Assembly: GCA_026168455.1 (NCBI GenBank)
Contig: CM047431.1
Span: forward strand, 47,185,466 to 47,249,465
Length of the DNA: 64,000 bases
Source: Theocolax elegans
Taxonomy: Eukaryota; Arthropoda; Insecta; Hymenoptera; Cerocephalidae
Direction: 5' to 3'
A program made the position numbers and the translations under genes. Of this stretch, positions 611 through 42,840 are shown piece by piece (positions within the stretch are counted from its first letter, which is position 1; each line of letters opens with the position of its first letter). Under the pieces are notes generated by a model, which saw nothing but the letters and a program-made list of their open reading frames with translations, was not told the DNA's origin and searched no databases.

Positions 611-1147
611 TGTAGGATAGATGCAGATCATCACATTACATTTTGTAAAAAAATTTATTTATAAATAAATTAAATAATTGCTATTTCAGTTCACTAAAAA
701 TCTCGAAAAATCTGGACTCAACAAAATATAAAACAACTGATATTAAATTTTAATGAAAGAAACAACAAATTTTACTGCAAGTCTTATGAAATAATATCAC
801 AACAGCTACTAAATTTGTTAGACATTTCAGTAAAATTTGTGTACGGCGAATGTTAGTAGGCAGGGTAGTACAATTTTAGTGTCCAGTATAGTAAAATTTA
901 TTGAAATTTCTGCTATTCTCAACGAAACTGTTAGGTTAGCTGGCTTCTATTCGAATTTATGCAATTAATTAACGCATTTGACTAATCTGAATCGACAGAA
1001 TTTTAACCATATTAATTACAAACCGACTGGTTTAGCTTTTAATTGATATTAACAACGGGATAATGCAATAAATGTTAATAAAGTTCGCGCGTCCTTTGAG
1101 CGACGTGTAGCTTATAACGACGATTCGAAGTTAAACAATGGAAAGTT

Positions 1148-1231
1148 GATGGCGCAGCGGTAACGTGCTCGATTTTGACGCGAAGGGTCCCAGGTTCGAA
1201 TCCCGGTGTCGGATGATCCAAAGTTTTTTTT
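1148..1231 (+). ncRNA. tRNA-like Pol III unit (copy 1)
   Basis: An A-box-like TGGCGCAGCGG at 1150-1160 is followed by a good B-box, GGTTCGAATCC, at 1193-1203. An oligo-T run of eight at 1224-1231 could act as a Pol III terminator. The 3' side of an acceptor stem has no matching 5' strand and the anticodon arm is poor, so this is not a functional tRNA. It is more likely the head of a tRNA-derived SINE or a tRNA pseudogene. An identical copy sits at 3411-3494. Confidence 0.6.
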
Positions 1232-1238
1232 CATTAAT

Positions 1239-1458
1239 AGTATATTACACACCTAGGGAGGTAAGTATTGGTTAGTCCATAGCACATGTAATTGACACCC
1301 GAGCCGAAGGTGAGGGTGGCAAACATGTGCTATGGGGTGACCATTTTACCTCCCGTGGATGTATACTATTTTTCACCACCAGTAGGCTGAAAATAAACAC
1401 ATTGCTCTTTCGGTGCCGGGAGGGAATGTGGTACTTTCGGTCTACGTGTGGTGAAAAA
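1239..1458 (+). ncRNA. Two consecutive long hairpins after the tRNA-like head (copy 1)
   Basis: Hairpin 1 spans 1239-1367 and has nested pairing: AGTATA with TATACT, GGGAGGTAA (1256-1264) with TTACCTCCC (1346-1354), CCATAGCACATGT (1277-1289) with ACATGTGCTATGG (1323-1335), and CACCC with GGGTG nearer the tip. Hairpin 2 is closed by TTTTTCACCAC (1369-1379) and GTGGTGAAAAA (1448-1458), with an inner ACATT/AATGT pair and two CTTTCGGT repeats. The ordered nested stems look like a structured RNA or a short foldback transposon. The function is unknown. Confidence 0.5.
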
Positions 1459-1680
1459 TAATTTATTATTCATTTATATTTCAGTTTAAATGTATGTAAA
1501 TAATAGTATATCTAAATAATTCTATGTATAAAATAAAAAAAAGATGGCACGGGAGCCGTCCGAAAAATAAATTTTTCTTTCTTTCAGTCGCAATAAAAAT
1601 TACTATACTGTTTTGTAAAATTTAGTGAACTCGTTCTAAAATTAGTGAACTGCAAGTTTGTCTCGATTTCAAGTATGATA

Positions 1681-2150
1681 ATGAATTTATTGATCTCCAC
1701 AAGACAAAGATTATACCTCACAACTCCGTAAGGCGGACTGCATTTAAAAATCTCACAGAATGAGTGTTTGAAAAAAAGACCAATAAATAGGGCATAATAG
1801 TAGGGCATATACCCCATATCTTCCTCGTCGGAGTAGAGATGTTTTTAAAAATTTTAATATTATATCATTCATCTGTATTTAGAGACGAGATGCCTGGACT
1901 CTACTGGTGAGCCCACCAGGCATACTCAGGGCGAAATACAATAAATTTTCTTTTCCTTTTCCTAATCTTTTTTCCGTTTTATTTAATTTTATACTACAAT
2001 CAATTAAATCTTTTATTTGACTTAGCTTGTCTTGATATTTTTCAAACACTCATCCTGTGAGTTTTTTAAATTGCTGGTATTAATGCAGTCCGCCTTACGG
2101 AGTTGTGAGCAATAGTCTTTGGCTTGTTGAGATTAATAAATTCATTTGTC
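1681..2150 (+). mobile_element. Inverted-repeat element carrying a hammerhead fold (copy 1)
   Basis: The left arm (1681-1795) begins ATGAATTTATTGATCTCCAC. The right arm (about 2025-2150) is its reverse complement with scattered mismatches; both arms contain the AAGGCGGACTG / CAGTCCGCCTT block. Between the arms lie CATATACCCCAT, the hammerhead-like sequence at 1875-1939, then a T/C-rich tract. No coding capacity is visible, so this is a non-autonomous element. It could be a derivative of a Penelope-like or retrozyme-type retroelement, since those are known to carry hammerheads, but nothing in the window proves the class. Confidence 0.6.
1875..1939 (+). ncRNA. Degenerate hammerhead ribozyme (copy 1)
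   Basis: The fold matches the intact copy at 34696-34760: stem III GTAT/ATAC, stem I TAGAG/CTCTA, stem II GCCC/GGGC, GAA, and the complementary loop octamers ATGCCTGG and CCAGGCAT. Two residues differ: the cleavage-site base 17 is U (position 1879) and core A6 is G (position 1907, CTGGTGA in place of CTGATGA). A6 is part of the conserved hammerhead core, so this copy is probably inactive or very slow. Confidence 0.75.
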
Positions 2151-3410
2151 AAATAACTAATAATGTAAATAACAACAGATTCACGAATTTTCTATTTTTA
2201 GAAAAATTTTTAGAATTATTTAGAAAAATTGACATTTTAAAATTCTACTAGGTAATGAAATTTAATAAATATTACGCAATTCGAATAATTTAACATATTT
2301 CTGTTTAATTTAACTACTAGTACCTTTGTACATTTATTTACTTCCCAGGCGTTCGTACATGACAATGATCACACGTCGCAAACATCCCTTTCTCCGAATG
2401 GGTTTTATAAATCCTCGTACCGTAATTAGTCCGTCAAATTGCAAAAGACACAAGAGATTGAAACGACAGATGCGTGGAGTTATTTCGCTCTCGGAGGAGA
2501 AGGAGGAGGAGGATGGTCGTTTCACCCTATTACGGGGCCGGAGAATGTGGCGCGAGAGCCACAGAAGCACCGCAACCGTTGCGGTCTTTGCTTAAACCAA
2601 CCGATGCGCCCGCGAGCGAGCTAGCGAACGCGCCTTACCCGTAACCAACACACCCGTGGATAATCACTGCCCGGTATATATCTCCTGGCAAAACAATCGG
2701 CGACTAACGAGCTGCCGACGAGACTAACCGAAAAGGAGGAGGACTCGGCTATACCATGTAGGATAGATGCAGATCATCACATTACATTTTGTAAAAAAAT
2801 TTATTTATAAATTAAATTAATACACGGAGAAAAGTTCTATGAAAAATTACGATATTTTTACTGTAAGCGAGAGACAAACAAAGTTCAGTTGAAAAAGTGC
2901 AATATTTATTTGGTAATAAGTAAACACTTCCAAGAATAATTGCTATTTCAGTTCACTAAAAATCTCGAAAAATCTGGACTCAACAAAATATAAAACAACT
3001 GATATTAAATTTTAATGAAAGAAACAACAAATTTTACTGCAAGTCTTATGAAATAATATCACAACAGCTACTAAATTTGTTAGACATTTCAGTAAAATTT
3101 GTGTACGGCGAATGTTAGTAGGCAGGGTAGTACAATTTTAGTGTCCAGTATAGTAAAATTTATTGAAATTTCTGCTATTCTCAACGAAACTGTTAGGTTA
3201 GCTGGCTTACTATTCGAATTTATGCAATTAATTAACGCATTTGACTAATCTGAATCGACAGAATTTTAACCATATTAATTACAAACCGACTGGTTTAGCT
3301 TTTAATTGATATTAACAACGGGATAATGCAATAAATGTTAATAAAGTTCGCGCGTCCTTTGAGCGACGTGTAGCTTATAACGACGATTCGAAGTTAAACA
3401 ATGGAAAGTT

Positions 3411-3494
3411 GATGGCGCAGCGGTAACGTGCTCGATTTTGACGCGAAGGGTCCCAGGTTCGAATCCCGGTGTCGGATGATCCAAAGTTTTTTTT
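3411..3494 (+). ncRNA. tRNA-like Pol III unit (copy 2)
   Basis: Duplicate of 1148-1231. A-box-like TGGCGCAGCGG starts at 3413, the B-box GGTTCGAATCC lies at 3456-3466 and the T8 terminator at 3487-3494. It does not fold into a complete cloverleaf acceptor stem. Confidence 0.6.
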
Positions 3495-3501
3495 CATTAA
3501 T

Positions 3502-3718
3502 AGTATATTACACACCTAGGGAGGTAAGTATTGGTTAGTCCATAGCACATGTAATTGACACCCGAGCCGAAGGTGAGGGTGGCAAACATGTGCTATGGGG
3601 TGACCATTTTACCTCCCGTGGATGTATACTATTTTTCACCACCAGTAGGCTGAAAAACACATTGCTCTTTCGGTGCCGGGAGGGAATGTGGTACTTTCGG
3701 TCTACGTGTGGTGAAAAA
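3502..3718 (+). ncRNA. Two consecutive long hairpins (copy 2)
   Basis: Duplicate of 1239-1458. Hairpin 1 is 3502-3630 and hairpin 2 is closed by 3632-3642 with 3708-3718. A 4-base deletion relative to copy 1 falls in an unpaired part of hairpin 2. All paired segments are unchanged, but the copies are too recent for that to be evidence of selection. Confidence 0.5.
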
Positions 3719-3982
3719 TAATTTATTATTCATTTATATTTCAGTTTAAATGTATGTAAATAATAGTATATCTAAATAATTCTATGTATAAAATAAAAAA
3801 AAGATGGCACGGGAGCCGTCCGAAAAATAAATTTTTCTTTCTTTCAGTCGCAATAAAAATTACTATACTGTTTTGTAAAATTTAGTGAACTCGTTCTAAA
3901 ATTAGTGAACTGCAAGTTTGTCTCGATTTCAAGCAAGAATATCGTAATTTTTATATGAAAATTTTTCTCCGTGTATACATAT

Positions 3983-4465
3983 ATGATAAATGAATTTATT
4001 GATCTCCACAAGCCAAAGATTATACCTCACAACTCAGTAAGGCGGACTGCATTTAAAAATCTCACAGAATGAGTGTTTGAAAAAAGACCAATAAATAGGG
4101 CATAATAAGTAGGGCATATATACCCCATATCTTCCTCGTCGGAGTAGAGATGTTTTTAAAAATTTTAATATTATATCATTCATCTGTATTTAGAGACGAG
4201 ATGCCTGGACTCTACTGGTGAGCCCACCAGGCATACTCAGGGCGAAATACAATAAATTTTCTTTTCCTTTTCCTATCTTTTTTCCGTTTTATTTAATTTT
4301 ATACTACAATCAATTAAATCTTTTATTTTGACTTAGCTTGTCTTGATATTTTTTCAAACACTCATCCTGTGAGGTTTTTAAATTGGCTGGTATTAATGCA
4401 GTCCGCCTTACTGAGTTGTGAGCAATAGTCTTTGGCTTGTGGAGATTAATAAATTCATTTGTCAA
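3983..4465 (+). mobile_element. Inverted-repeat element carrying a hammerhead fold (copy 2)
   Basis: Same organisation as 1681-2150: left arm from ATGATAAATGAATTTATTG, a central hammerhead-like fold at 4186-4250, and the right arm ending AATAAATTCATTTGTC. It lies directly after the right end of the TIR element. Confidence 0.6.
4186..4250 (+). ncRNA. Degenerate hammerhead ribozyme (copy 2)
   Basis: Identical over 65 nt to the fold at 1875-1939: all three stems and the kissing-loop octamers are present, but A6 is G and the cleavage-site base is U. It is part of the tandem duplication, so it is not an independent observation. Confidence 0.75.
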
Positions 4466-4779
4466 ATAACTAATAATGTAAATAACCAACAGATTCACGA
4501 ATTTTCTATTTTTAGAAAAATTTTTAGAATTATTTAGAAAAATTGACATTTTAAAATTCTACTAGGGTAATGAAATTTAATAAAATATTACGCAATTCGA
4601 ATAATTTAACATATTTCTGTTTAATTTAACTACTAGTACCTTTGTACATTTATTTACTTCCCAGGCGTTCGTACATGACAATGATCACACGTCGCAAACA
4701 TCCCTTTCTCCGAATGGGTTTTATAAATCCTCGTACCGTAATTAGTCGTCAAATTGCAAAAGACACAAGAGATTGAAAC

Positions 4780-5330
4780 GACAGATGCGTGGAGTTATTT
4801 CTCTCTCGGAGGAGAAGGAGGAGGAGGATGGTCGTTTCACCCTATTAACGGGGCCGGAGAATGTGGCGCGAGAGCCACAGAAGCACCGCAACCGTTGCGG
4901 TCTTTGCTTAACCAACCGATGCGCCCGCGAGCGAGCTAGCGAACGCGCCTTACCCGTAACCAACACACCCGTGGATAATCACTGCCCGGTATATATCTCC
5001 TGGCAAAACAATCGGCGACTAACGAGCTGCCGACGAGACTAACCGAAAAGGAGGAGGACTCGGCTATACCATGTAAATTTGCATCGGACGACGCGCGAAC
5101 AGTTCTCCACACCCCCTTGAGAACCTATACGTATTCCGAGATGTCCATCTTCTCTCCGAGTGTGTGTGTGTGTGCGTCGTCGAAACGAGGAATGGGCAAT
5201 CAGACGATTGGAGCTACAATTTTGGCTGATTCGATTTCTCTTTTGAGAATTTGTACTCGGATACGTGCATCTCGTCTATCCTCGTTTCTCTCGCTAATGC
5301 AGTTTTCCTGTGGATATGTCTCTATACGTT
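4780..5330. other. GC-richer, CpG-containing block, possible promoter or 5' exon
   Basis: A locally GC-rich block containing the palindrome CCGCAACCGTTGCGG, a TATATATC motif and CpG dinucleotides, in an AT-rich neighbourhood. It is repeated at 2466-2755 (partial) and 7388-7940. It could be the promoter or a 5' UTR exon of a gene outside the window, but no start codon or splice pair supports a coding exon. Confidence 0.3.
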
Positions 5331-6761
5331 CCACGAGTCAACACTCATTTTCTATCCCAAGCTTCGAATCCGCGAACAAACTTCTACTCCTCATTTACAA
5401 ATTGATCAACCTGCATACTCTATGTACGTATTTCAATTTATCCCGGAATGCATAATTGTTAATACTATCTCGTATTTTTTCCTTATTTTCGATAGCTCAC
5501 CAATCGAACTACGTACACGCCGCGTGTGGTTTTACTAATTGAAAGGAAAGCTATAATATATACCGTACGTGACGTGCCCAATTTCTAATTTCACGCCTAC
5601 ATAAAAAAAGTAAATATCTTCTACTCTATTGTATATTAAAGGGAAAAAATAGAAGATGAATAGCCCAATGTATTATGTTAAGTATCATTGTGGAATGGGC
5701 AAGTATTTTTAAAAACGAAATAAAAATAGGTATAAAACAAAAAAAACTAATCGATGTCTAAGTCACATAAAGCAATTTCGAAAAGTATTCGACAAATACA
5801 TTTCCTCGCAAAATTTTTGTTTACTTTATTTTTTAAATACTAAATAATGATTAATAATTAGACACCGATCGTTAATTAGATGTGATACACGGTACCGGTC
5901 GAAATAATACTTAAATCGTGGGACGTTGAAATAATAATAACGATGATGATGATGATGATAAGAATGGAAAAAAAAAAGAAAAATGAGGAAAAGAAGAATA
6001 AGAAGGTTACGAAGACGCAGTGTAGGTAACAGAAGCAATAAAAGTCGTATGAATCGAAGCGAGCTCTCACAAAAGAAACTTGACGTCCACTTGCCAATTG
6101 ATTTTCGAGATTGGGAAATTGGGAATTAATTGGCAACCTCGCGAAATTCAACGAGGCCCTCGGTTCATTTACATTGGCAGATTTACGACATTACTAACTT
6201 CGTCCTATCTGTCGCTCTCTTTATCTCTCTTCCTCTTTTCATCTTTACATCTTTCCCTCTCCGCGCGTGCGTGTGCGTATGCTCGCGTGTGTGCGGGTCT
6301 GTATGTGTTGAGCTTGGAATTTCTTAAGAAGCTTCATTTCACAAAGTTAAATCATTGAAATTTATTGGAAAATTTTGATGGCACTTTTATTAACGTTACG
6401 AAGCTGCTGTAAAAATGTTAAATTTATAAGGACGCTTTGTCCTCTGCGAGAAATTTATTCTCATTTTATGCGCGCTCTTATATACGGTAACTACGACTAG
6501 ATGATTTTAAAATTACAAATTAATTTATTTCATTTTACGCGTTGCTCTTTATTAAATTCATCCTTTCTTTTTTTTTTACTTTTTTTCTTACAAATTATGA
6601 TATTTTACAACTATCGTTATTTTTTCTTTTTACCTTTGATTATTATTCGACTCTAATGTCATTTAGTTGGACACGTTGGCTTTTAAGTATCATTCCAAAA
6701 TACGATGCAATTATATCATCGCATATATAAGTCAGAGGTGGAGAAGTATTCGACCGCAACT

Positions 6762-7075
6762 TTTTAAAAATTTTAATATTATATCATTCATCTGTATTTA
6801 GAGACGAGATGCCTGGACTCTACTGGTGAGCCCACCAGGCATACTCAGGGCGAAATACAATAAATTTTCTTTTCCTTTTCCTATCTTTTTTCCGTTTTAT
6901 TTAATTTTATACTACAATCAATTAAATCTTTTATTTTGACTTAGCTTGTCTTGATATTTTTTCAAACACTCATCCTGTGAGGTTTTTAAATTGGCTGGTA
7001 TTAATGCAGTCCGCCTTACTGAGTTGTGAGCAATAGTCTTTGGCTTGTGGAGATTAATAAATTCATTTGTCAAAT
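6762..7075 (+). mobile_element. Hammerhead inverted-repeat element, left arm missing (copy 3)
   Basis: The duplication junction removes everything upstream of TTTTTAAAAATTTTAATATT. The hammerhead fold (6794-6858) and the right arm (about 6950-7075) remain. Confidence 0.6.
6794..6858 (+). ncRNA. Degenerate hammerhead ribozyme (copy 3)
   Basis: Same 65 nt as copies 1 and 2, with G at A6 and U at position 17. It is a duplicate through tandem duplication II. Confidence 0.75.
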
Positions 7076-8860
7076 AACTAATAATGTAAATAACCAACAG
7101 ATTCACGAATTTTCTATTTTTAGAAAAATTTTTAGAATTATTTAGAAAAATTGACATTTTAAAATTCTACTAGGGTAATGAAATTTAATAAAATATTACG
7201 CAATTCGAATAATTTAACATATTTCTGTTTAATTTAACTACTAGTACCTTTGTACATTTATTTACTTCCCAGGCGTTCGTACATGACAATGATCACACGT
7301 CGCAAACATCCCTTTCTCCGAATGGGTTTTATAAATCCTCGTACCGTAATTAGTCGTCAAATTGCAAAAGACACAAGAGATTGAAACGACAGATGCGTGG
7401 AGTTATTTCTCTCTCGGAGGAGAAGGAGGAGGAGGATGGTCGTTTCACCCTATTAACGGGGCCGGAGAATGTGGCGCGAGAGCCACAGAAGCACCGCAAC
7501 CGTTGCGGTCTTTGCTTAACCAACCGATGCGCCCGCGAGCGAGCTAGCGAACGCGCCTTACCCGTAACCAACACACCCGTGGATAATCACTGCCCGGTAT
7601 ATATCTCCTGGCAAAACAATCGGCGACTAACGAGCTGCCGACGAGACTAACCGAAAAGGAGGAGGACTCGGCTATACCATGTAAATTTGCATCGGACGAC
7701 GCGCGAACAGTTCTCTACACCCGCTTGAGAACCTATACGTATTCCGAGATGTCCATCTTCTCTCCGAGTGTGTGTGTCTGTGTGTGCGTCGTCGAAACGA
7801 GGAATGGGCAATCAGACGATTGGAGCTACAATTTTGGCTGATTCGATTTCTCTTTTGAGAATTTGTACTCGGATACGTGCATCTCGTCTATCCTCGTTTC
7901 TCTCGCTAATGCAGTTTTCCTGTGGATATGTCTCTATACGTTCCACGAGTCAACACTCATTTTGTATCCCAAGCTTCGAATCCGCGAACAAACTTCTACT
8001 CCTCATTTACAAATTGATCAACCTGCATACTCTATGTACGTATTTCAATTTATCCCGGAATGCATAATTGTTAATACTATCTCGTATTTTTTCCTTATTT
8101 TCGATAGCTGACCAATCGAACTACGTACACGCCGCGTGTGGTTTTACTAATTGAAAGGAAAGCTATAATATATACCGTACGTGACGTGCCCAATTTCTAA
8201 TTTCACGCCTACATAAAAAAAGTAAATATCTTCTACTCTATTGTATATTAAAGGGAAAAAATAGAAGATGAATAGCCCAATGTATTATGTTAAGTATCAT
8301 TGTGGAATGGGCAAGTATTTTTAAAAACGAAATAAAAATAGGTATAAAACAAAAAAAACTAATCGATGTCTAAGTCACATAAAGCAATTTCGAAAAGTAT
8401 TCGACAAATACATTTCCTCGCAAAATTTTTGTTTACTTTATTTTTTAAATACTAAATAATGATTAATAATTAGACACCGATCGTTAATTAGATGTGATAC
8501 ACGGTACCGGTCGAAATAATACTTAAATCGTGGGACGTTGAAATAATAATAACGATGATGATGATGATGATAAGAATGGAAAAAAAAAAAGAAAAATGAG
8601 GAAAAGAAGAATAAGAAGGTTACGAAGACGCAGTGTAGGTAACAGAAGCAATAAAAGTCGTATGAATCGAAGCGAGCTCTCACAAAAGAAACTTGACGTC
8701 CACTCGGCATTATAGATTTTCATACATTCCATTTAGCAAAAATGAATTTCACTCAAAGAATGTCCCGCGGGCGATTGGCCCTTTGTACGCTCACTCGCTC
8801 TCCCGAGGCTCGGTGTAATCCACTCGATATCAATATCGAGACGCACACGCGCACACACCC

Positions 8861-34374: not shown

Positions 34375-34472
34375 TTATCGTATATTATTATTCCAAAGTT
34401 TATTAGAGAATAAAACGCTGGAAAATTTAAAAATATAAGATTGCAAAAATTCGAAGTTATATAAATACTTAT

Positions 34473-34865
34473 ATGATAAATGAATTTATTGATCTCCACA
34501 AGCCAAAGACTATTGCTCACAACTCAGTAAGGCGGACTGTATTAATACCAGCCACTTTAAAAACCTCACAGGATGAGTGTTTGAAAAAAGACCAAGACAA
34601 GCTAAGTCAAAATAAAAAATTTAATTGATTGTAGTATATAATTAAAAAAACTAAAAAAACGGAAAAAAAAGAAAGAAAGGAACTGAAAATTTATTGTATT
34701 TCGCCCTGAGTATGCCTGGTGGGCTCATCAGTAGAGTCCAGGCATCTCGTCTCTAGATACGGATGAATGATATAATATAAAAATTTGGAAACCAGCTCTA
34801 TCCCGACGAGGAAGACATGGGGTATATGTGCCCTACCGATAGCGAACTTTAGTAAGTGCCACTAA
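34473..34865 (-). mobile_element. Hammerhead inverted-repeat element, minus orientation (copy 4)
   Basis: The same family as 1681-2150 but clearly diverged. On the minus strand it reads CATATACCCCATG, CTTCCTCGTCGGGATAGAG, the hammerhead (34760-34696), a T/C-rich tract, then the right arm (34620-34473) ending ATAAATTCATTTATCAT. The upstream arm is missing here. A separate palindromic fragment of the same family lies just beyond, at 34955-35375. Divergence of the flanks from copies 1-3 shows this is not part of the recent duplications. Confidence 0.6.
34696..34760 (-). ncRNA. Intact type III hammerhead ribozyme
   Basis: Read on the minus strand: stem III 5' strand GTAT (34760-34757), cleavage-site C17 at 34756, stem I TAGAG (34755-34751) with CTCTA (34736-34732), core CTGATGA (34731-34725), stem II GCCC (34724-34721) with GGGC (34706-34703), core GAA (34702-34700), and stem III 3' strand ATAC (34699-34696). 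A15.1-U16.1 is present and all conserved core bases are right. Loop I carries ATGCCTGG and loop II CCAGGCAT, which are exact reverse complements, so an 8 bp loop-loop interaction can form. Such contacts are what make natural hammerheads fast at cellular magnesium. The chain enters and leaves through stem III, hence type III. Predicted activity: self-cleavage after 34756. Confidence 0.88.
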
Positions 34866-34954
34866 TTAACAGGTAGCCCCCTAACGCACTTACAAATAAC
34901 TAATGTCTTAATCGTCAGAATATTGCCAAATAAAGCATTTAGTGATCTAATGCC

Positions 34955-35375
34955 ATATAATTTTAAAATTTGAATTTTTCCAACTATTAGAAAATTCGTG
35001 AATCTATTGCTTGTTTACACTATAAGTTATATGATAAATGAATTTATTGATCTCCACAAGCCAAAGACTGGGCGAAATACAAAAAATTTTCAGTTCCTTT
35101 CTTTCTTTTTTTTCCGTTTTTTTAGTTTTTTTAATTATATACTACAATGAATTAAATTTTTTATTTTGACTTAGCTTGTCTTGGTCTTTTTTCAAACACT
35201 CATCCTGTGAGGTTTTTAAAGTGGCTGGTATTAATACAGTCCGCCTTACTGAGTTGTGAGCAATAGTCTTTGGCTTGTGGAGATCAATAAATTCATTTAT
35301 CATATAACTTATAGTGTAAACAAGCAATAAATTCACGAATTTTCTAATAGTTGGAAAAATTGAAATTTTAAAAAT
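34955..35375. repeat. Palindromic fragment of the hammerhead element family
   Basis: 34960-35069 is the reverse complement of about 35265-35375 (arms of about 110 bp containing ATTTATTGATCTCCACAAGC and its inverse). The spacer begins GGGCGAAATAC at 35070-35080, the last 11 bases of the hammerhead fold, then continues through the T/C-rich tract into the right arm. The copy is thus a truncated element starting within the hammerhead 3' strand. Confidence 0.6.
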
Positions 35376-37915
35376 ATATAAATACTTAATTGAACTCTTT
35401 AATAATGCTACGTCCGCAGTATATTGCCTTTGAAATCGTCATCTTTAGGCGATAAAAATGTTACTTTCATTCCTTTTCATGTCAACAATTATTCATTTAC
35501 TACGATTGTTTTTGACAGAAAAGTTACACTTACAGCCTTGCCGCTATAATGAGAGATGAATGCAAATGTTTTTCATTCAGCAGGGTAAACTTGGCGCGGG
35601 TATGATTTTTTGCATAACAACTAAACTTTACTTGTTTATACTTACTTATTTAAAAAAACGTGTCATTTATTAAAAAATCGGCATTATCCCGTTTCTCTGC
35701 AGGTTAAAATAGTTTTTGGTGAAGAGATTCCAGCTAAGGTTTACAAGCGTAAATCATTTATGTTGTGCGTCGACTATTTTTGAAAACAAATATTAGTTAT
35801 AGTTAAAAAAACATACAATCCCAATGCTGTATTCTCTGAATACTGTATAATTTGAAAATTTATTATATTAAATCATGAAAAGAAGATAGAAAAAAGTTTA
35901 TTTTTAACTTGCAATGTAAATAAAAACGTTTTAAAAAGTCATTTTTAAATGTATATAAAAACAATTTCTGTAATAAAAATTTTACAAATTTCTTTTACTC
36001 GCTAAAACATAATTAACAAATCGGACTATCCTCATTAAACGAAAGCTTTCTATCACTGGAAGCTCATACAAAATATTTATAGAAGATCTATAAAATTATT
36101 TAATCGGAACATGAAATAAATATAAAAATATAAAGTGTATGAACAAAAATGTACTTTTATAGCAAAATTAAAACATTATGCAATGTTGGTTTCAATCAAT
36201 TTATACGACTGAATTAAGGACGAAATCTTGACTTTTCTACTAATTTTTTAAATGTTTACTCTCATCCTACTCCTTTTCTTCTACTTACCTTAATTAATTT
36301 TCGATTTAAAATCCATACTTTTATAACACTTAAAAGAGTTAATTTTATAAAATTAGTATTATACGTTTACCTTCGTTTCTCTTCATGTTATCGGCCCGCA
36401 AGCATTCTCTTTTATCCATTTGTTTATATTTTGAAGTTAGAAATAGCTGTTTTATAGGGTATTATTATACCTATCCAATTTCTATCGATTTTTAAAAAAT
36501 CCTCTATTATACACCTCAAAAATCAATTAACGTTTTTACTACACTGTAAATCCTAAATTGTAATAATTGACAGCAAAATGTGTAAATCGACAATTTCACA
36601 CTTTTAAAAAATGTAAAATGTGAAAATTGCAATTTCCAAAAGTTTTACACCTTAGGGTCCAAAGTGTACAAGGATCTCATTTATTTACAATTATTTAAAC
36701 AACAGTGCGAAGAAAATTTACTTTTTTTTACATTTGTTATAATTAAAAAGTAAATAATTCCATTAACCATCTGCGAAAAATTGTGCAGCTTGATGTATTT
36801 AAAAAATCGTTATCTTCCATTCTCTTACTTTCCGCGGATCCCCATCAGTCTTACCATTTAGCAATTAAGAACATAAATCAATTCAAATTTAATCTCGTAT
36901 CCTGGAAAACCAAGCTAACTTGGTCTATATATCTATGTATATATATACACAATCGGAACGATAGAAAAGCTAAACCTCTTCTTACAATATATATATATAT
37001 TTCTTGTTTGTTCTGATCCCTTTGTTTTTTTACCACACACGTATATGTTACACACATAGAGACACACGCACCAGAGAAAGAGTAAATCATTTTTTTCAAT
37101 TACCTCTACCATAGACACGTATCGCGTGCGTGCACGTCTTATTTCGATCGTATCGAGGATTATAGAACGCAGGTAATGAAGGACGGTCAACCATGAATGG
37201 AGAGGAGTGGATCGGAAAATGAATATGGAAAAGTGGCTAACCGAACAATAGACTTTTTGGCTCTGCGTAAAGGCAAGAAATTGGGGAGAGGAAAATTGCA
37301 AAAATGAAATATTCCTACACTTAAGAAATATAAATAGGAATCAACTGTATCGTATATATATATATATACATAGCGTTATACGGTTTATTCTACGAGGGGC
37401 CGAATTATTAGGATATGCGCCCAGGAATTATGGACTTTAATTCATCACGGCTTCTTACTACGAGAACCCGTTGCATATTATACTTGGATGTGTATGTGTG
37501 TGTATATATATATTCACGTAGGAGAACCTACCACGAAATGAAGGCCATGCAATTTTCCTTGAAATTGAAATACATTGAGCTCGTGAAGATATTACTTTAT
37601 AATTTACGGATTTTTCTTTTTTCGTTATAAAAATGTTTAATTTTGTGTATTTATGGATTACTATATTCACTTTTAAGTTAAATAATTCCTTTCCCCTTTT
37701 TTTTAATATTCTTGCAATTTATCGTCTAATAGATTTGTAAAAGGCGAGGGAGGGATTGAAAGAGAGAGAATTAATTTTGAATAACTGTCATTTATTGTTG
37801 TCATATTTTGTTAACTAAAGTTGTAAACCGTTGACTATACAGAAAGCAATGAACAATTCAAGTGATACAACGAATAAAATTTGTATTGTCAACGTTATCC
37901 AATGTTAAATAAAAT
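35376..37915. other. AT-rich intergenic region 3' of the IR genes
   Basis: It includes a small imperfect hairpin around 36580-36650 (TTTCACACTT / AAATGTGAAA) and (TA)n / (GT)n microsatellites at about 36985 and 37350-37500. No open frame has a recognisable domain. Confidence 0.45.
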
Positions 37916-37939: not shown

Positions 37940-39814
37940 TTACGTTAATCCCAATTTCGTTCGCCGCATTACATTCGATAATTTTTTACAAATTCGCCGT
38001 AGTAATTTTCGGTAATCAAACGCGAGGACGATCCGTCGATAAAATAATTCGATGGTGAAAATAAACACCGAGATTCCGTATCCAGCAGCTAAAACGCATA
38101 CGAGGTGTTTCAAAAATATTTGTTCCACATCGTTGTCGTCTTGAGATTTGATGGACTGAACGTCCTTGACACCGTCCTTCAAAATCAACCAAATCCCGGA
38201 TTCGAAAATTCGTTGTAAAATGTCGTAGAATCTCTCGATAAAGGGCGAGCCTCGCTCGAACATGTATATCCATCTCTCGTTAGCGAACATGGGTTCAGCT
38301 ATTTTAATTATTTCCGAGCCATCGTGATCGCGATATTTCAACGTGAACTTTTCCGCCCTGAGGCTCGACATGAAACAAATGGCACTTTGGTTTTTAAGCA
38401 ATATATCGTCGCATTCTTTTGTAAAATTAACAGCTTTCGTCCGTCGTTTTATTTTCTGCACGTAACGATCGTCATTGACAAAACTACGATTGTAAAGTAT
38501 CCGATTGACGTAAAAATCCAATGAAGAATCGCTTATTTCCTTGAATGTGTCGAACGCCACCTCGTTCTGAATGACTTTCATGTTGATCAGTTGGGAATAA
38601 AAGTCAAACGAGCAATTAACGGATACGACGATGATGCTTATGAATATCACTCGGTCTATCAAATTGGTGGGATGCTTAGCTGGCGCTGTTCCCAAAAGTA
38701 CCCGAAACAAATCGAATATTTCGGAATATTGGTATTCTACATTCAACACCTGTAAAATATAAACGAATATGACAATGGTGAAAGGTATGGTCAGTATTAA
38801 AAATAATATTTCCATGGTGGTTTTCAACTCGACGTAAAATATCACGGGGACTACGGCGACGACGCCTTGGTAAATGTAACCAACGTCCAATTCGAGCATC
38901 ATATCTCCGTACGACGTTTTTGGATACGGTATCACCATCATATTCAAAACACCTTCTTCCATTTTCTCGATGGTGTTGTTCACGACGGTCGTCGTCGTCT
39001 CGTTTTTAAAATCGACGACGTAGTTCAACGTGAAATTTGCACATATTGTAGCTAATTTCATCAAAGGATAATAATAACCTTTAATATCTACCAATTGTCC
39101 ATTCTCATCCCACGTGACGTTCAGGTGTGGAGGGCTATTGAACACTGGTGCTTTTAAGGAATATCCATTACCGTTCGTTAATTTATTTGGGAAGACCTTT
39201 TCACTCGATTTAAAATACTCGGCGGTGAGCGTATCGTTAAATGGATTATAACGATGAATCAAACTATTCCCCGAAATTTTCACTTGGATTATCGAAAAAT
39301 CGAGATATTTCCTCGTCCACGCGTATCGCAATGTTGACTCGAAATAACCAACGTCTGTCGTGTCGGTGTACGTTACGACCAAGCATTTCGGCCTAGTTGG
39401 TCTAGGATGCAACTCAACTGAGAAATCGATGAAATTTCTTACGTACTTTGAAAACGACGCGTCACTCTCGTTCACCGTCGAGTGAAACACGACGTACAAA
39501 TTCACGTCTCTGGGATTTGTAAATACCGGTAACTCGAACGACCTACGATCCTCGGTCATCTTAACAAAATCAATCGTGAGCGTTGGTACATTTTCAATTA
39601 TTTTCTTAAACACGTTTTTCCGATCAAATACACTTTTCACACTTGTATCGTTCACGAATATCGTCACTTGATGCGGTTTCAAATATTCCAATATGTTTTG
39701 AATAACAATGTCCAGCCAATTGATAGTCCCATGCGAACACGTAACTTTTATCTCGAAAACGTTCAACACGAAGAAACAGTAGAGCATCCATAATATTATC
39801 TTGCAAAAACACAT
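37940..39814 (-). CDS. Divergent ionotropic receptor (IR), single exon
   Basis: Predicted ligand-gated cation channel of the arthropod IR family (variant glutamate receptors used in taste, smell, temperature or humidity sensing), located in the dendritic membrane of sensory neurons. The start is the ATG at 39814, giving 624 residues. Residues 1-25 are a hydrophobic signal peptide. An N-terminal domain follows with the NPF motif at about 190 and FPNKL at about 208, typical of insect divergent IRs before the S1 lobe. Hydrophobic segments: about 335-357 (M1), 388-405 (M3), 569-590 (M4). Between the first two lies a pore-loop region (EIFDLFRVLLG), and the S2 lobe ends with the SPF...F motif at about 523-530. 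N-glycosylation sequons are frequent in the ectodomain. The frame is uninterrupted, so the gene appears intronless and intact. The neighbour at 40993-42840 is a paralogue on the same strand 1.2 kb upstream. Ligand unknown. Confidence 0.88.
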   Translation of the reverse strand: MCFCKIILWMLYCFFVLNVFEIKVTCSHGTINWLDIVIQNILEYLKPHQVTIFVNDTSVKSVFDRKNVFKKIIENVPTLTIDFVKMTEDRRSFELPVFTNPRDVNLYVVFHSTVNESDASFSKYVRNFIDFSVELHPRPTRPKCLVVTYTDTTDVGYFESTLRYAWTRKYLDFSIIQVKISGNSLIHRYNPFNDTLTAEYFKSSEKVFPNKLTNGNGYSLKAPVFNSPPHLNVTWDENGQLVDIKGYYYPLMKLATICANFTLNYVVDFKNETTTTVVNNTIEKMEEGVLNMMVIPYPKTSYGDMMLELDVGYIYQGVVAVVPVIFYVELKTTMEILFLILTIPFTIVIFVYILQVLNVEYQYSEIFDLFRVLLGTAPAKHPTNLIDRVIFISIIVVSVNCSFDFYSQLINMKVIQNEVAFDTFKEISDSSLDFYVNRILYNRSFVNDDRYVQKIKRRTKAVNFTKECDDILLKNQSAICFMSSLRAEKFTLKYRDHDGSEIIKIAEPMFANERWIYMFERGSPFIERFYDILQRIFESGIWLILKDGVKDVQSIKSQDDNDVEQIFLKHLVCVLAAGYGISVFIFTIELFYRRIVLAFDYRKLLRRICKKLSNVMRRTKLGLT

Positions 39815-40992
39815 TTTAAGTTCACATTTTAACGATTCAATAAGCCTTTGCTGATTTCGATGCAACGATCAAGTAATCACCAACGATACTGAATCGAAAG
39901 AAAAATAAATTTTCGAATCATCAGTGTATATTCACTGATATTTATGTTACATTCGGGGTACATAATGCGCGGTAAAATGTTTTAGTTAGATACAATCTGG
40001 GGGGTATCGTTATGCTCATTCGAATCATTTTAAAAGGTCAACGAAAAAACATGGAAAACTACTATGGATATTATCGCGACCGAATAAATAAATGTCTCTC
40101 TTTTTTTTTTCGTACACATTAATAAATATCAATCATTCTTTACGACTGGAACAACCGAAAATAATATATTACGATCGTATACAAATATTAAATATACTAA
40201 TTCAATTGTAAATTATACAAGCGTTATTCATTTTACAAAATTTGATTAATATATTCCAGTAACGCACTTTGCGAACTGTGCGATTAATAATCGCTAAATG
40301 AGATAAAAAAAAACATTATTTACGGAATTAATAGAGATGTTTGATAAATCTGTTAAAAAAAAGTTCGTACGATTTGACTAAATAAGTAAAAAATATAATA
40401 ATGAAAATTTGGCGAAAAAATGAGTAACGTAATGCACAATACGATAACGAGAACAGTATCAGCCGTTTGCAAATAAATTACAAATAATGCAATTAATTTA
40501 TTTGTGAGTAATAGAAAAACATAATTACTAATTTTGACTGATGCTTGTAATGTGATGCTTGTGATCAATATTATGCTAGTGAAATACTCTTCAACGAAAA
40601 AATGTCAATAATTGCGGAACCTATCAAACGTTTAAAAAATACATTTACAAAACCTGCGTTTTGCAGTCGCGAATAACTTTTTATTATTCGGAAACCGCGA
40701 TTACATGTTTTCGTTATCACTTCGCAAAATATTTATAATTGTGCTTTTTATTTATTTAATAATAATTTGATACAATCATACGCAGTTTGTTTTAACATCG
40801 GTTTCAAACATCCCAATCAATTTCACAATGTATAGTTCCTTTTAGCACTGATTAATAATAACGCACCACATTACAAAATATTACATACTCGAGAATGTAT
40901 GCATCATTTGTACACATTTTTTCTTACATATGATAATGAATATTATGAATTGTGATGAATGAATGAAATAGATGTATTTGAATGTCACCAAT
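39815..40992. other. Intergenic region between the two IR genes
   Basis: 1.18 kb of AT-rich sequence with no open frame of note. It must hold the promoter of the downstream receptor and the 3' end of the upstream one. No clear TATA box or binding-site cluster is recognised. Confidence 0.5.
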
Positions 40993-42840
40993 CTATAACG
41001 CAACACTCGACCGTGATTTTCTTCCGTACAGGTAATAAAAAGCAAGCTCGATGAAAAACGCGGCGGTTGAGGCTGCGTAACCAATAGACAATATCGAAAG
41101 AAGCTGCATCGACAGTTCGTTTTCGACATCTTTGTACCTATCCGCGTTCGAGGATTTTTGGTTGAAGAAATAGCTGTTTACCGCTTTCTCGAATATACCG
41201 GATTCGAAGGTGATTTGCAAGAGTTCGTAAAATTTATCCATAAACGGCGAGGACGATTCGAAAATGTAAGTCCACCTCTCGGAATTGAAGAGGGGCTTGG
41301 CTATTTTCATCAAGGGCGATCCATCGGGTTTACGATTTTTACGTAACAACACGGCCGCCCTTATTTTCGTCGTGATACAAGCCGATTCCATTTCGATTTT
41401 CAACGACTCGACGCACTCCTTGATCGTCTCGACGCGAATGGCTTTTGATTTTAAATTTTGTACATACGGATCGTCGAGATCGAGGGTTCTCGCCCAGAAA
41501 CCTTTGTTTATGTAAGGTCGTAGCGGATACTCGCTGATATCCTCGAAAGTGTCGAACCGTATCTCGTCGTGCATCAAATTGTCTATCAATTTCGAGTAAA
41601 ACTCGACGATGTACTTGGTCGATATTATGATCACGCTGGTGAAGAGTATCCGGCCGACGAGTGTCCTCGGTGGTGAATTTACGCTCACGCCCAGGAGTAA
41701 TTGCAAATTTTTCAATACCGTCAAATTGTCGCATTGAACCTTGAAGTAACGGAGAAGATCCGCGAAAGATCCGGCGATAACGGGGACGATGAGGACATAA
41801 ACGAATACTTTCAACGAGACGTGAACGTCGTCGATGTAGAGTACTGGTACCATAGCGATGTAATCTTCGTATATAAAACCAGCGTCCAATTCGAGATACA
41901 AATCGCTCTTGCGGGAATTTTCCCGGGATCTTGGGAAGGGCACCACCATCAAATTCAAATGACTGCTCTGGAGATTGTCGAAATCCAGTACCGAGGTCAA
42001 CGTGCTGTTCTCCTCTTCCAATACGTATTCCAAGTAAAAGTTCAATTTACGTGCGACCGTCGGTACGAATTCGTAATAAACACCCGATATATTTAATATT
42101 CGACCGTCGTCGTCTTGGGCGACTTCCATGTACGGTGACAAATTGAATATCGGTGCTCTCAGAACATACCCGTTCCCGTCCTGCAATTTGTCCGGAAAAA
42201 TCTCGACGTTCGACGCGTAATCGTCTTTATCGATCCTTTTGTAAAACGGATTGTAATTGTGCAACTTAGTTCTCGCGTTCTTCACACTATCCGCTACGTC
42301 GACGTTCACTTCCAATATCGATACGTCCAAAAATTTGTTGCTCCACGCGTATTCGAAGAAAGCGCGCGTGTACGCGTCGGTCAGCCCGAAGTCGGGATAA
42401 ACGACGAACAAACATCTCGGTAATACGTATTTCATTGACAAATCGATCAAAAATCGTAAATACTCGTTTAAACTCAAGGACTCCACCGTGTTGCTATATT
42501 CACGATGCACGATCACGAAGAGCGTCACGTATTTCGAATTTTGAAGACCCGGCAAGTCGAGGGATCGATAATCACCGATCAATCGCAATTTCCCCAAATC
42601 TATAACGACGCTCGGTGTCTCTCGTACAATTCTTTGCACCACTACGAATTGTTGACTCGTCAATTTCGTCGCGTTCGTGTTCACGAATATAGCTACTTGA
42701 TATACTTTCAAATTCTGCTTGATGTGCCGCAGTAAACAATCCAACCAGTTGGACCGAGTCGCGCGAACGGGGCTGTCCTCGATCGCGCAAAACATTATAA
42801 CGACGTACGTCACCCACGCAAACTTAAAGGGAGTAATCAT
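40993..42840 (-). CDS. Divergent ionotropic receptor (IR), single exon, paralogue
   Basis: Second IR-family receptor, 615 residues, ATG at 42840 and TAG stop at 40993-40995. The hydrophobic N-terminus (about 6-20) is a likely signal peptide. Shared landmarks with the neighbouring gene in the same order: NWLD near 31, NPFY at about 197-200, FPDKL at about 215, GNGY.L.APIFN at about 222-233, LELD.G.IY at about 316-324, pore-loop region LKNLQLLLG at about 376-384, and ERW.Y.FE..SPF at about 521-533. Membrane segments: about 343-361, 396-412 and 579-601. The two proteins are clearly paralogous but strongly diverged, so this is an old tandem pair, unlike the recent non-coding duplications elsewhere in the window. 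No intron and no frameshift. The 3' end lacks a close AATAAA; one lies about 240 bp downstream. Sensory role inferred from family. Confidence 0.88.
   Translation of the reverse strand: MITPFKFAWVTYVVIMFCAIEDSPVRATRSNWLDCLLRHIKQNLKVYQVAIFVNTNATKLTSQQFVVVQRIVRETPSVVIDLGKLRLIGDYRSLDLPGLQNSKYVTLFVIVHREYSNTVESLSLNEYLRFLIDLSMKYVLPRCLFVVYPDFGLTDAYTRAFFEYAWSNKFLDVSILEVNVDVADSVKNARTKLHNYNPFYKRIDKDDYASNVEIFPDKLQDGNGYVLRAPIFNLSPYMEVAQDDDGRILNISGVYYEFVPTVARKLNFYLEYVLEEENSTLTSVLDFDNLQSSHLNLMVVPFPRSRENSRKSDLYLELDAGFIYEDYIAMVPVLYIDDVHVSLKVFVYVLIVPVIAGSFADLLRYFKVQCDNLTVLKNLQLLLGVSVNSPPRTLVGRILFTSVIIISTKYIVEFYSKLIDNLMHDEIRFDTFEDISEYPLRPYINKGFWARTLDLDDPYVQNLKSKAIRVETIKECVESLKIEMESACITTKIRAAVLLRKNRKPDGSPLMKIAKPLFNSERWTYIFESSSPFMDKFYELLQITFESGIFEKAVNSYFFNQKSSNADRYKDVENELSMQLLSILSIGYAASTAAFFIELAFYYLYGRKSRSSVAL

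Follow-up and report, generated by a model that had tools for sequence, protein, structure and literature searches.

A type III hammerhead ribozyme motif was found inside a non-coding, head-to-head repeat element in the window, that is, the whole 64,000-nucleotide stretch of Theocolax elegans DNA that was analysed, and related copies and two sister families could be detected in the host genome. The reading we favour, at a probability of roughly 0.7, is that the hammerhead serves for self-processing in a non-autonomous retrozyme-like element mobilised by a Penelope-like element (PLE), and that the pairing between its two terminal loops is functional. The family of the window (A) and the sister families (B and F) would best be read, from their sequences, as PLE-mobilised animal retrozymes with type III in place of the usual type I hammerheads. 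Metazoan retrozymes have been described with type I ribozymes by Cervera and de la Pena (2020, PMC7229834), where PLEs are named 'a strong candidate' for copying animal retrozymes. Nearly two thousand exact ribozyme-pattern matches (1347 + 512) are present in this one insect genome, and the ends of the sampled copies repeat the PLE two-start-site signature, so that the copying of animal retrozymes by PLEs becomes testable.

The hammerhead and its element in the window

An intact type III hammerhead had been claimed in the first-pass annotation, and all the core residues and stems named there were found on the minus strand. The motif carries CUGANGA, GAA, H17 and A15.1-U16.1, and its stem III is open. 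Its parts are as follows.

34696..34760, minus strand: type III hammerhead motif of family A, from motif scan and Rfam alignment; predicted cleavage between 34756 (C17) and 34755
34757..34760, minus strand: 5' strand of stem III, GTAT; partner ATAC at 34696-34699
34751..34755, minus strand: 5' strand of stem I, TAGAG; partner CTCTA at 34732-34736
34738..34745, minus strand: loop 1 octamer ATGCCTGG
34725..34731, minus strand: core CTGATGA
34721..34724, minus strand: 5' strand of stem II, GCCC; partner GGGC at 34703-34706
34712..34719, minus strand: loop 2 octamer CCAGGCAT, the reverse complement of the loop 1 octamer
34700..34702, minus strand: core GAA

Both loops are 14 nt long, and the exact reverse complementarity of the octamers that they carry, which had also been claimed, was verified over 8 bp. 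When both strands were scanned for type III motifs whose stems measure 5, 4 and 4 bp, this motif, with its 8-bp loop match, was the only one in the window, and 400 dinucleotide shuffles yielded none, by which a chance motif is ruled out and the earlier judgement that a chance origin of the set is very unlikely is borne out. With the stems relaxed to 4, 3 and 3 bp, two type III motifs appeared in the 400 shuffles, neither of which had a loop match of at least 6 bp. The proposed check against the Rfam hammerhead models was also run: Hammerhead_3 (RF00008) aligned over its full length to the motif with 28.5 bits and, for the 1.4 kb searched, an E of 0.0013. As this score lies under the gathering cut-off of 48.5 bits, no entry is listed for the window in a default Rfam scan. 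Taken from the sequence, these results support the presence, in an insect mobile element, of a type III hammerhead (34696-34760) with a predicted cleavage site.

The inverted-repeat element that had been reported around the hammerhead is real, and consists of two head-to-head arms (34469-35379). The element and its further copies in the window comprise the following features.

34469..35069, minus strand: arm 1, a complete unit of 558 nt followed by the initial 43 nt of another, with its 3' end at site T1
35070..35379, plus strand: arm 2, a partial unit from inside the hammerhead (GGGCGAAATAC), through the unit junction, to site T2
34458..34471, plus strand: left target-site duplication TATATAAATACTTA, overlapping the mapped arm end by microhomology
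35375..35388, plus strand: right target-site duplication TATATAAATACTTA, overlapping the mapped arm end by microhomology
34817..34827, minus strand: word ATATACCCCAT, common to family B upstream of its hammerhead; possible TATA box
1674..2219, no strand given: older head-to-head copy of the element, with a degenerate hammerhead core
3980..4533, no strand given: segmental duplicate of the copy at 1674-2219
6768..7141, plus strand: third, truncated segmental duplicate

The arms are joined at their 5' ends, and arm 2 is identical to the arm 1 unit at 305 of 310 positions. Unit length in the family is ~535-558 nt. Since arm 1 is longer than one unit and arm 2 runs across the unit junction, the template would have been a circle or a concatemer. 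The target-site duplication around the element is a direct repeat of 14 bp. No ORF of at least 130 aa was detected in the element region, and the element itself is devoid of an ORF with reverse transcriptase (RT) and GIY-YIG as found in PLEs. The hammerheads of the three other copies in the window have the core CTGGTGA (A6G) and U17, and these copies appear to derive from a single insertion through segmental duplication.

Several other features of the window were observed. Positions 673-8721 form a tandem segmental duplication with ~2-kb blocks that are 96-99% identical. An imperfect palindrome of ~94 nt, ~75% self-complementary and doubled by segmental duplication (1367-1460 and 3629-3721), is probably a small foldback element; its copy at 3629-3721 weakly resembles mir-3145 of Rfam, with 33.3 bits against a cut-off of 98. 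Two receptor-like ORFs (641 and 615 aa) lie in tandem at 37940-42840, ~3 kb from the element, and presumably belong with the insect ionotropic receptors, which we take them to resemble. Neither ORF had a match in Pfam, the one compared with the PDB had none there, and a relative of the 615-aa ORF with 24% identity is present elsewhere in the genome (632 aa, L086). Phage blastn and an IMG/VR look-up (one exact 34-base pattern) returned no match, as expected for an animal genome.

Genome-wide copies and their ends

The host genome (658 Mb) was searched with a core/stem-II pattern, which gave 1347 exact matches (754+593) for families A and B together and none for a reversed-pattern control. Among 100 matches listed, 72 were assigned by manual count to family A and 28 to family B. 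The loci fetched by their hammerhead are head-to-head (L009-L011, L015-L017), in one direction (L012, L014) or mixed (L013), and the units of family A arrays measure ~533-539 nt. L015 shares its flanks with L051, so that the two represent one insertion, with a target-site duplication visible by eye. At C3:413,939-441,769 (L009-L011), a segment of ~5.7-6.8 kb that holds a head-to-head hammerhead array is repeated about five times in tandem; in the ~2.9-kb stretch between the L009 arrays, examined as a possible PLE body, the listed ORFs are short (at most 146 aa).

Conservation of the ribozyme was apparent in two samples of family A. Six representatives, chosen by their hammerhead match and with three of the loci from one repeated array region, show no change at the 65 hammerhead positions despite a difference of 14.5-19% outside. 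Another sample was obtained with a query blind to the ribozyme (the unit without it), which gave 44 matches, the best 40 of 1462 candidates being scored, and from which 20 loci (L048-L067) were taken; this sample leans to the best-preserved copies. Mismatches to the window unit in these loci amount to 47/1860 in the hammerhead versus 645/13389 elsewhere (Fisher 2.4e-6, with positions and arms not fully independent), and of 25 full copies, 21 retain an intact hammerhead core and five have a hammerhead identical to that of the window.

The arm ends of the same 20 loci were compared. Two arms are present in 16 loci and are head-to-head in every one of them. Thirteen of the 16 combine an arm ending at T1 (unit position ~599-606) with one ending at T2 (~665-691), including L064, where the second arm is interrupted by ~430 bp; T1+T1 or T2+T2 combinations were absent among the 16. 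L055, L061 and L063 have one arm end outside T1 and T2, and the single-arm loci L052, L053, L056 and L057 end at T2. Random twin priming without fixed sites was excluded, because the ends recur at T1 and T2. The spacing between the two sites is ~66-70 nt in family A, ~40 nt in the L009 subfamily and ~35 nt in family B (one element). Target-site duplications scored above every swapped-flank control (0 of 26 swapped flanks reached the score) in 16 of 27 tested elements, including that of the window and 13 of the 20 loci from the blind query, and no clear duplication was seen in the other 11; in head-to-head copies their length is about 12-19 bp. Further family A end points were noted at unit ~490-504, ~545 and ~382 (L013, L014, L017, L063).

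It is conceivable that these copies are ordinary satellite or foldback DNA with a fossil hammerhead, amplified by recombination, which would suit the many arrays and segmental duplicates as well as the fact that copies with a broken core or stem II have been amplified too. However, dispersed copies have target-site duplications, their end sites recur while the 5' ends vary, and the hammerhead is more conserved than its flanks in the blind sample. These findings speak against such an origin, which is considered improbable. As dispersed, non-coding tandem units with one hammerhead and target-site duplications, the elements correspond in this respect to metazoan non-LTR retrozymes.

Two sister families were characterised. 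Family B (L068, L069) has a unit of 498 nt and a hammerhead with stem III AATGT/ACATT, stem I TAAGG/CCTTA and stem II GACC/GGTC, whose loops carry ATTGCCAGT and ACTGGCAAT, complementary over 9 bp. The best blast match between A and B lies at the core (E 0.039), and the upstream word ATATACCCCAT is also common to both. In the B element L069, the unit positions at which the head-to-head arms end differ by ~35 nt, and TTAATTTATTTAG was recognised by eye as a duplication. Family F (L076) has stem I TGGGGC/GCCCCA and loops that carry GGGACCGTCTGC and GCAGACGGTCCC, with 12 complementary bp; 512 exact pattern matches were found in the genome (control 0), and their spacing indicates units of ~510 nt. 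A comparison of 601 F bases with A and B gave no significant similarity (best E 0.044 and 0.54). The three families are therefore without significant mutual similarity, yet have the same architecture with different stems and loops. B and F also match RF00008 over its full length (36.3-40.2 bits), below the cut-off of 48.5. As the Rfam cut-off misses the scanned copies of A, B and F, similar elements may be unannotated elsewhere. By eye, the T1-T2 stretches of A and B share the words ATATAAC..ATTCACGA..TTTAAAAT.

Complementary terminal loops

Loop complementarity is perfect over 8 bp in family A, 9 bp in B and 12 bp in F. When the loops were shuffled, at least 8 bp (A) was reached in 4.6e-4 of trials and 9 bp (B) in 1.3e-4, and a simple chance bound for the 12-bp match of F is 7e-7. 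Because stems and loop match change together between families, the pairing is supported, and the sequences suggest a functional loop 1-loop 2 interaction.

Variation within families was also considered. In family A, loop 2 variants (L080, L084) occur with loop 1 unchanged and no compensation; they look like decayed copies, some of which have been amplified in arrays (L080, and L081 for stem II). For family F, 29 distinct 62-mers were compared (5 of 100 listed rows having been dropped for length), in which 94.5% of the combinations at the 12 loop pairs are standard. A two-sided change was seen at one of the 12, in 5 rows; this pair lies in a CpG, where two independent decays are likely. The statistics are weak: the covariation score of F was reached by 17 of 500 shuffles and its number of two-sided pairs by 470 of 500; stem I of this family is fixed by the search pattern and so carries no information on covariation. 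Copies whose loop octamers vary without compensation and whose stems are not conserved had been named beforehand as speaking against the claim; this applies in part, since uncompensated loop variation does occur in the family A variants, though in what seem to be decayed copies.

The pairing could act in the active ribozyme or compete with it. As a kissing loop, the loop-loop helix would take the place of the usual non-Watson-Crick contacts in the tertiary structure of the active ribozyme. This agrees with the perfect complementarity in three families and with reports that a pseudoknot is needed for fast cleavage in a tested type II ribozyme and is predicted for ~40% of hammerheads, and helices of 8 and 9 bp fit loops of 12-14 nt with some single-stranded linker. 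On the other hand, the 12 bp of F are hard to accommodate in loops of 13-14 nt with both stems closed (by our own geometric estimate), and the nested alternative is calculated to be much more stable in all three families. By nested folding, the minimum-energy fold of A, B and F is an inter-loop hairpin that excludes stems I and II, at -18.8, -14.6 and -32.9 kcal/mol versus -6.5, -6.1 and -10.0 kcal/mol for the respective nested hammerheads, a difference of 8-23 kcal/mol obtained with a model that leaves out pseudoknot energy and gives the pseudoknotted hammerhead no score, and with F given a stem II of 3 bp, where a bulged one of 4 bp would suit it better. The kissing loop is regarded as plausible, at slightly less than even odds.

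The same hairpin could instead serve as a lock, in which the loops pair as an ordinary hairpin, stems I and II unfold, and a monomer circle is protected from re-cutting. The hairpin is present not only in the minimum-energy folds of the three ribozymes but also in the one calculated for the complete family A unit as a circle, and the pairing reaches 12 bp in F. Against this stand the neglect of the tertiary fold by energy models, the hammerhead stems and core being kept as well as the loops, and the argument made in PMC7229834 that circles of metazoans do not, as a rule, lock themselves by self-pairing. Such a lock is offered as a tentative possibility. A more elaborate model, which we put forward as speculative and rather doubtful, is that of a self-locking hammerhead: loops complementary in three families would let the RNA take either the cutting fold or the stem-dissolving hairpin, so that multimers would be cut during transcription and finished circles protected, after which the PLE RT would copy them from two starts into head-to-head insertions. 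We think that the pairing is most likely part stabiliser of the ribozyme fold and part competing lock. Of the loop-loop helix proposed in the first-pass annotation, functional pairing is supported by the three families, and the kissing helix in the active fold remains a prediction. The series of 8-12 bp provides a natural set for asking whether loop pairing speeds or blocks cutting, and also bears on how circles escape re-cutting.

The suggestion that an 8-bp loop-loop helix is a new variant could be retained in part. Watson-Crick loop pseudoknots are already described, insects included; the length of the match, its placement between two terminal loops and the element context were not found described in the literature consulted. 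Type III hammerheads with Watson-Crick loop 1-loop 2 pairing are reported in PMC7936874 from termite and toad delta-like RNAs, termite and dipteran genomes, D. pseudoobscura and satRPV. Their GCCR/YGGC motif matches family B, whereas, as described there, they have a longer helix I with an internal loop and a 4-nt contact motif, unlike the hammerheads here. According to the same source, the termite genomic type III hammerheads are isolated motifs, and hymenopterans, hemipterans and a cockroach gave negative results when searched by structure. Pseudoknot hammerheads (Perreault 2011, PMC3088659; PK crystal, PMC11300833) likewise pair the stem I side with the stem II side in a Watson-Crick pseudoknot, but the contacts span 4-6 bp in the described examples and the PK form replaces helix II. 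In the open-licence literature consulted, perfect terminal-loop complementarity of 8-12 bp was not found described.

Proposed mobilisation and relation to known elements

In the mechanism proposed for PLE-mobilised retrozymes, tandem units would be transcribed, and the type III hammerhead, judging from its intact motif, would cut the multimer to monomers of ~535-558 nt, which would probably be circularised by a host ligase as in known retrozymes. From the ends of the genomic copies, a PLE RT may then nick both strands of an AT-rich target and begin reverse transcription of the circle or concatemer internally, at T1 for one strand and at T2 for the other. The outcome would be a head-to-head pair of arms, both truncated on their 5' side, between target-site duplications of about 12-19 bp; such arms and duplications are seen in the copies.

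PLEs are present in this genome. GIY-YIG matches number 98, from the best 150 of 1713 candidates scored, and several of them sit in open frames 800-884 aa long and form part of divergent pairs. One of these frames was sampled in its middle, which encodes a reverse transcriptase in frame with the GIY-YIG match. It is these PLEs that we infer to copy families A, B and F. In published accounts of PLEs (PMC11167929, PMC3846280), the RT of a lizard PLE is described as starting at two adjacent internal sites, with both strands cut and extended, and the stretch between the two start sites is the tail of genomic copies. Rotifer PLEs are described with head-to-head inverted pLTRs, a 31-bp tail on one of them and target-site duplications of 8-10 bp. 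As far as these two accounts go, the elements here share with PLEs the head-to-head arms, a tail on one arm, AT-rich targets and an internal hammerhead, with duplications of ~10 bp in PLEs, and two internal start sites are likewise indicated. However, PLE hammerheads are of the minimal type I and PLEs code for RT and GIY-YIG, whereas the present elements are type III and non-coding. Other observations fit mobilisation by a PLE less well: the T1-T2 spacing of family A (~66-70 nt) exceeds the known PLE tails of 30-40 nt, although that of family B (~35 nt) fits, and one end lies elsewhere in 3 of the 16 two-armed loci, four loci are single-armed and 11 of 27 elements have no clear target-site duplication.

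An integrated viroid-like or delta-like RNA replicon was also considered as the origin of the element, given that type III hammerheads with loop pseudoknots are reported from termite and toad delta-like circular RNAs. The hammerhead occurs on one strand only of the element region, which is devoid of an ORF of at least 130 aa; the fold of the circle is not unusually self-paired (z -0.9, 40 shuffles); and the ends are of the PLE type. Such a replicon appears very improbable.

The PLE-mobilised retrozymes proposed here were compared with other hammerhead repeats. Metazoan non-LTR retrozymes are described with type I hammerheads and RNAs of ~170-400 nt (PMC7229834), whereas the present elements have type III hammerheads, units of ~498-558 nt, head-to-head arms and two recurrent ends. 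Plant LTR retrozymes (PMC4918200, PMC7761336, PMC7229834) likewise carry type III hammerheads, in units of several hundred nt (~700 in plants), but are described with LTRs, PBS/PPT, 4-bp target-site duplications and GC >55%; longer duplications and no LTR layout were seen here. A plant LTR retrozyme was rejected on account of the duplications of at least 12 bp and head-to-head arms, against 4 bp and LTRs. The Dolichopoda satellite pDo500 (PMC2837043) is also a ~500-bp insect tandem repeat with a conserved hammerhead; in that account the ribozyme is 49 nt long, stem III is folded within one sequence and a double-hammerhead model is given, and no description of head-to-head retro-insertion was found. 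Nor were type III ribozymes in PLE-like head-to-head elements found described in the open-licence literature consulted.

Another hammerhead-core pattern, CTGATGAG..CGAAA, gave 3053 genome matches (control 49) and takes in family F and some A variants. Many of these matches, among them the eight loci L070-L075, L077 and L079, look like minimal type I ribozymes as reported for PLEs. An Rfam scan of two of them (L072 and L077) gave no match up to E 1, and no PLE frame was found in the 3.5 kb downstream of two type I-like hammerheads, one of which is followed by a receptor-like gene and the other by no 100-aa ORF. The type I-like hammerheads have an unpaired base after G10.1 in stem II, a bulge that they have in common with family F. 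In L077 and L070, TATAAATA is present ~35 nt upstream and the word TTCAGT just before the type I-like core, as if transcription started next to the ribozyme.
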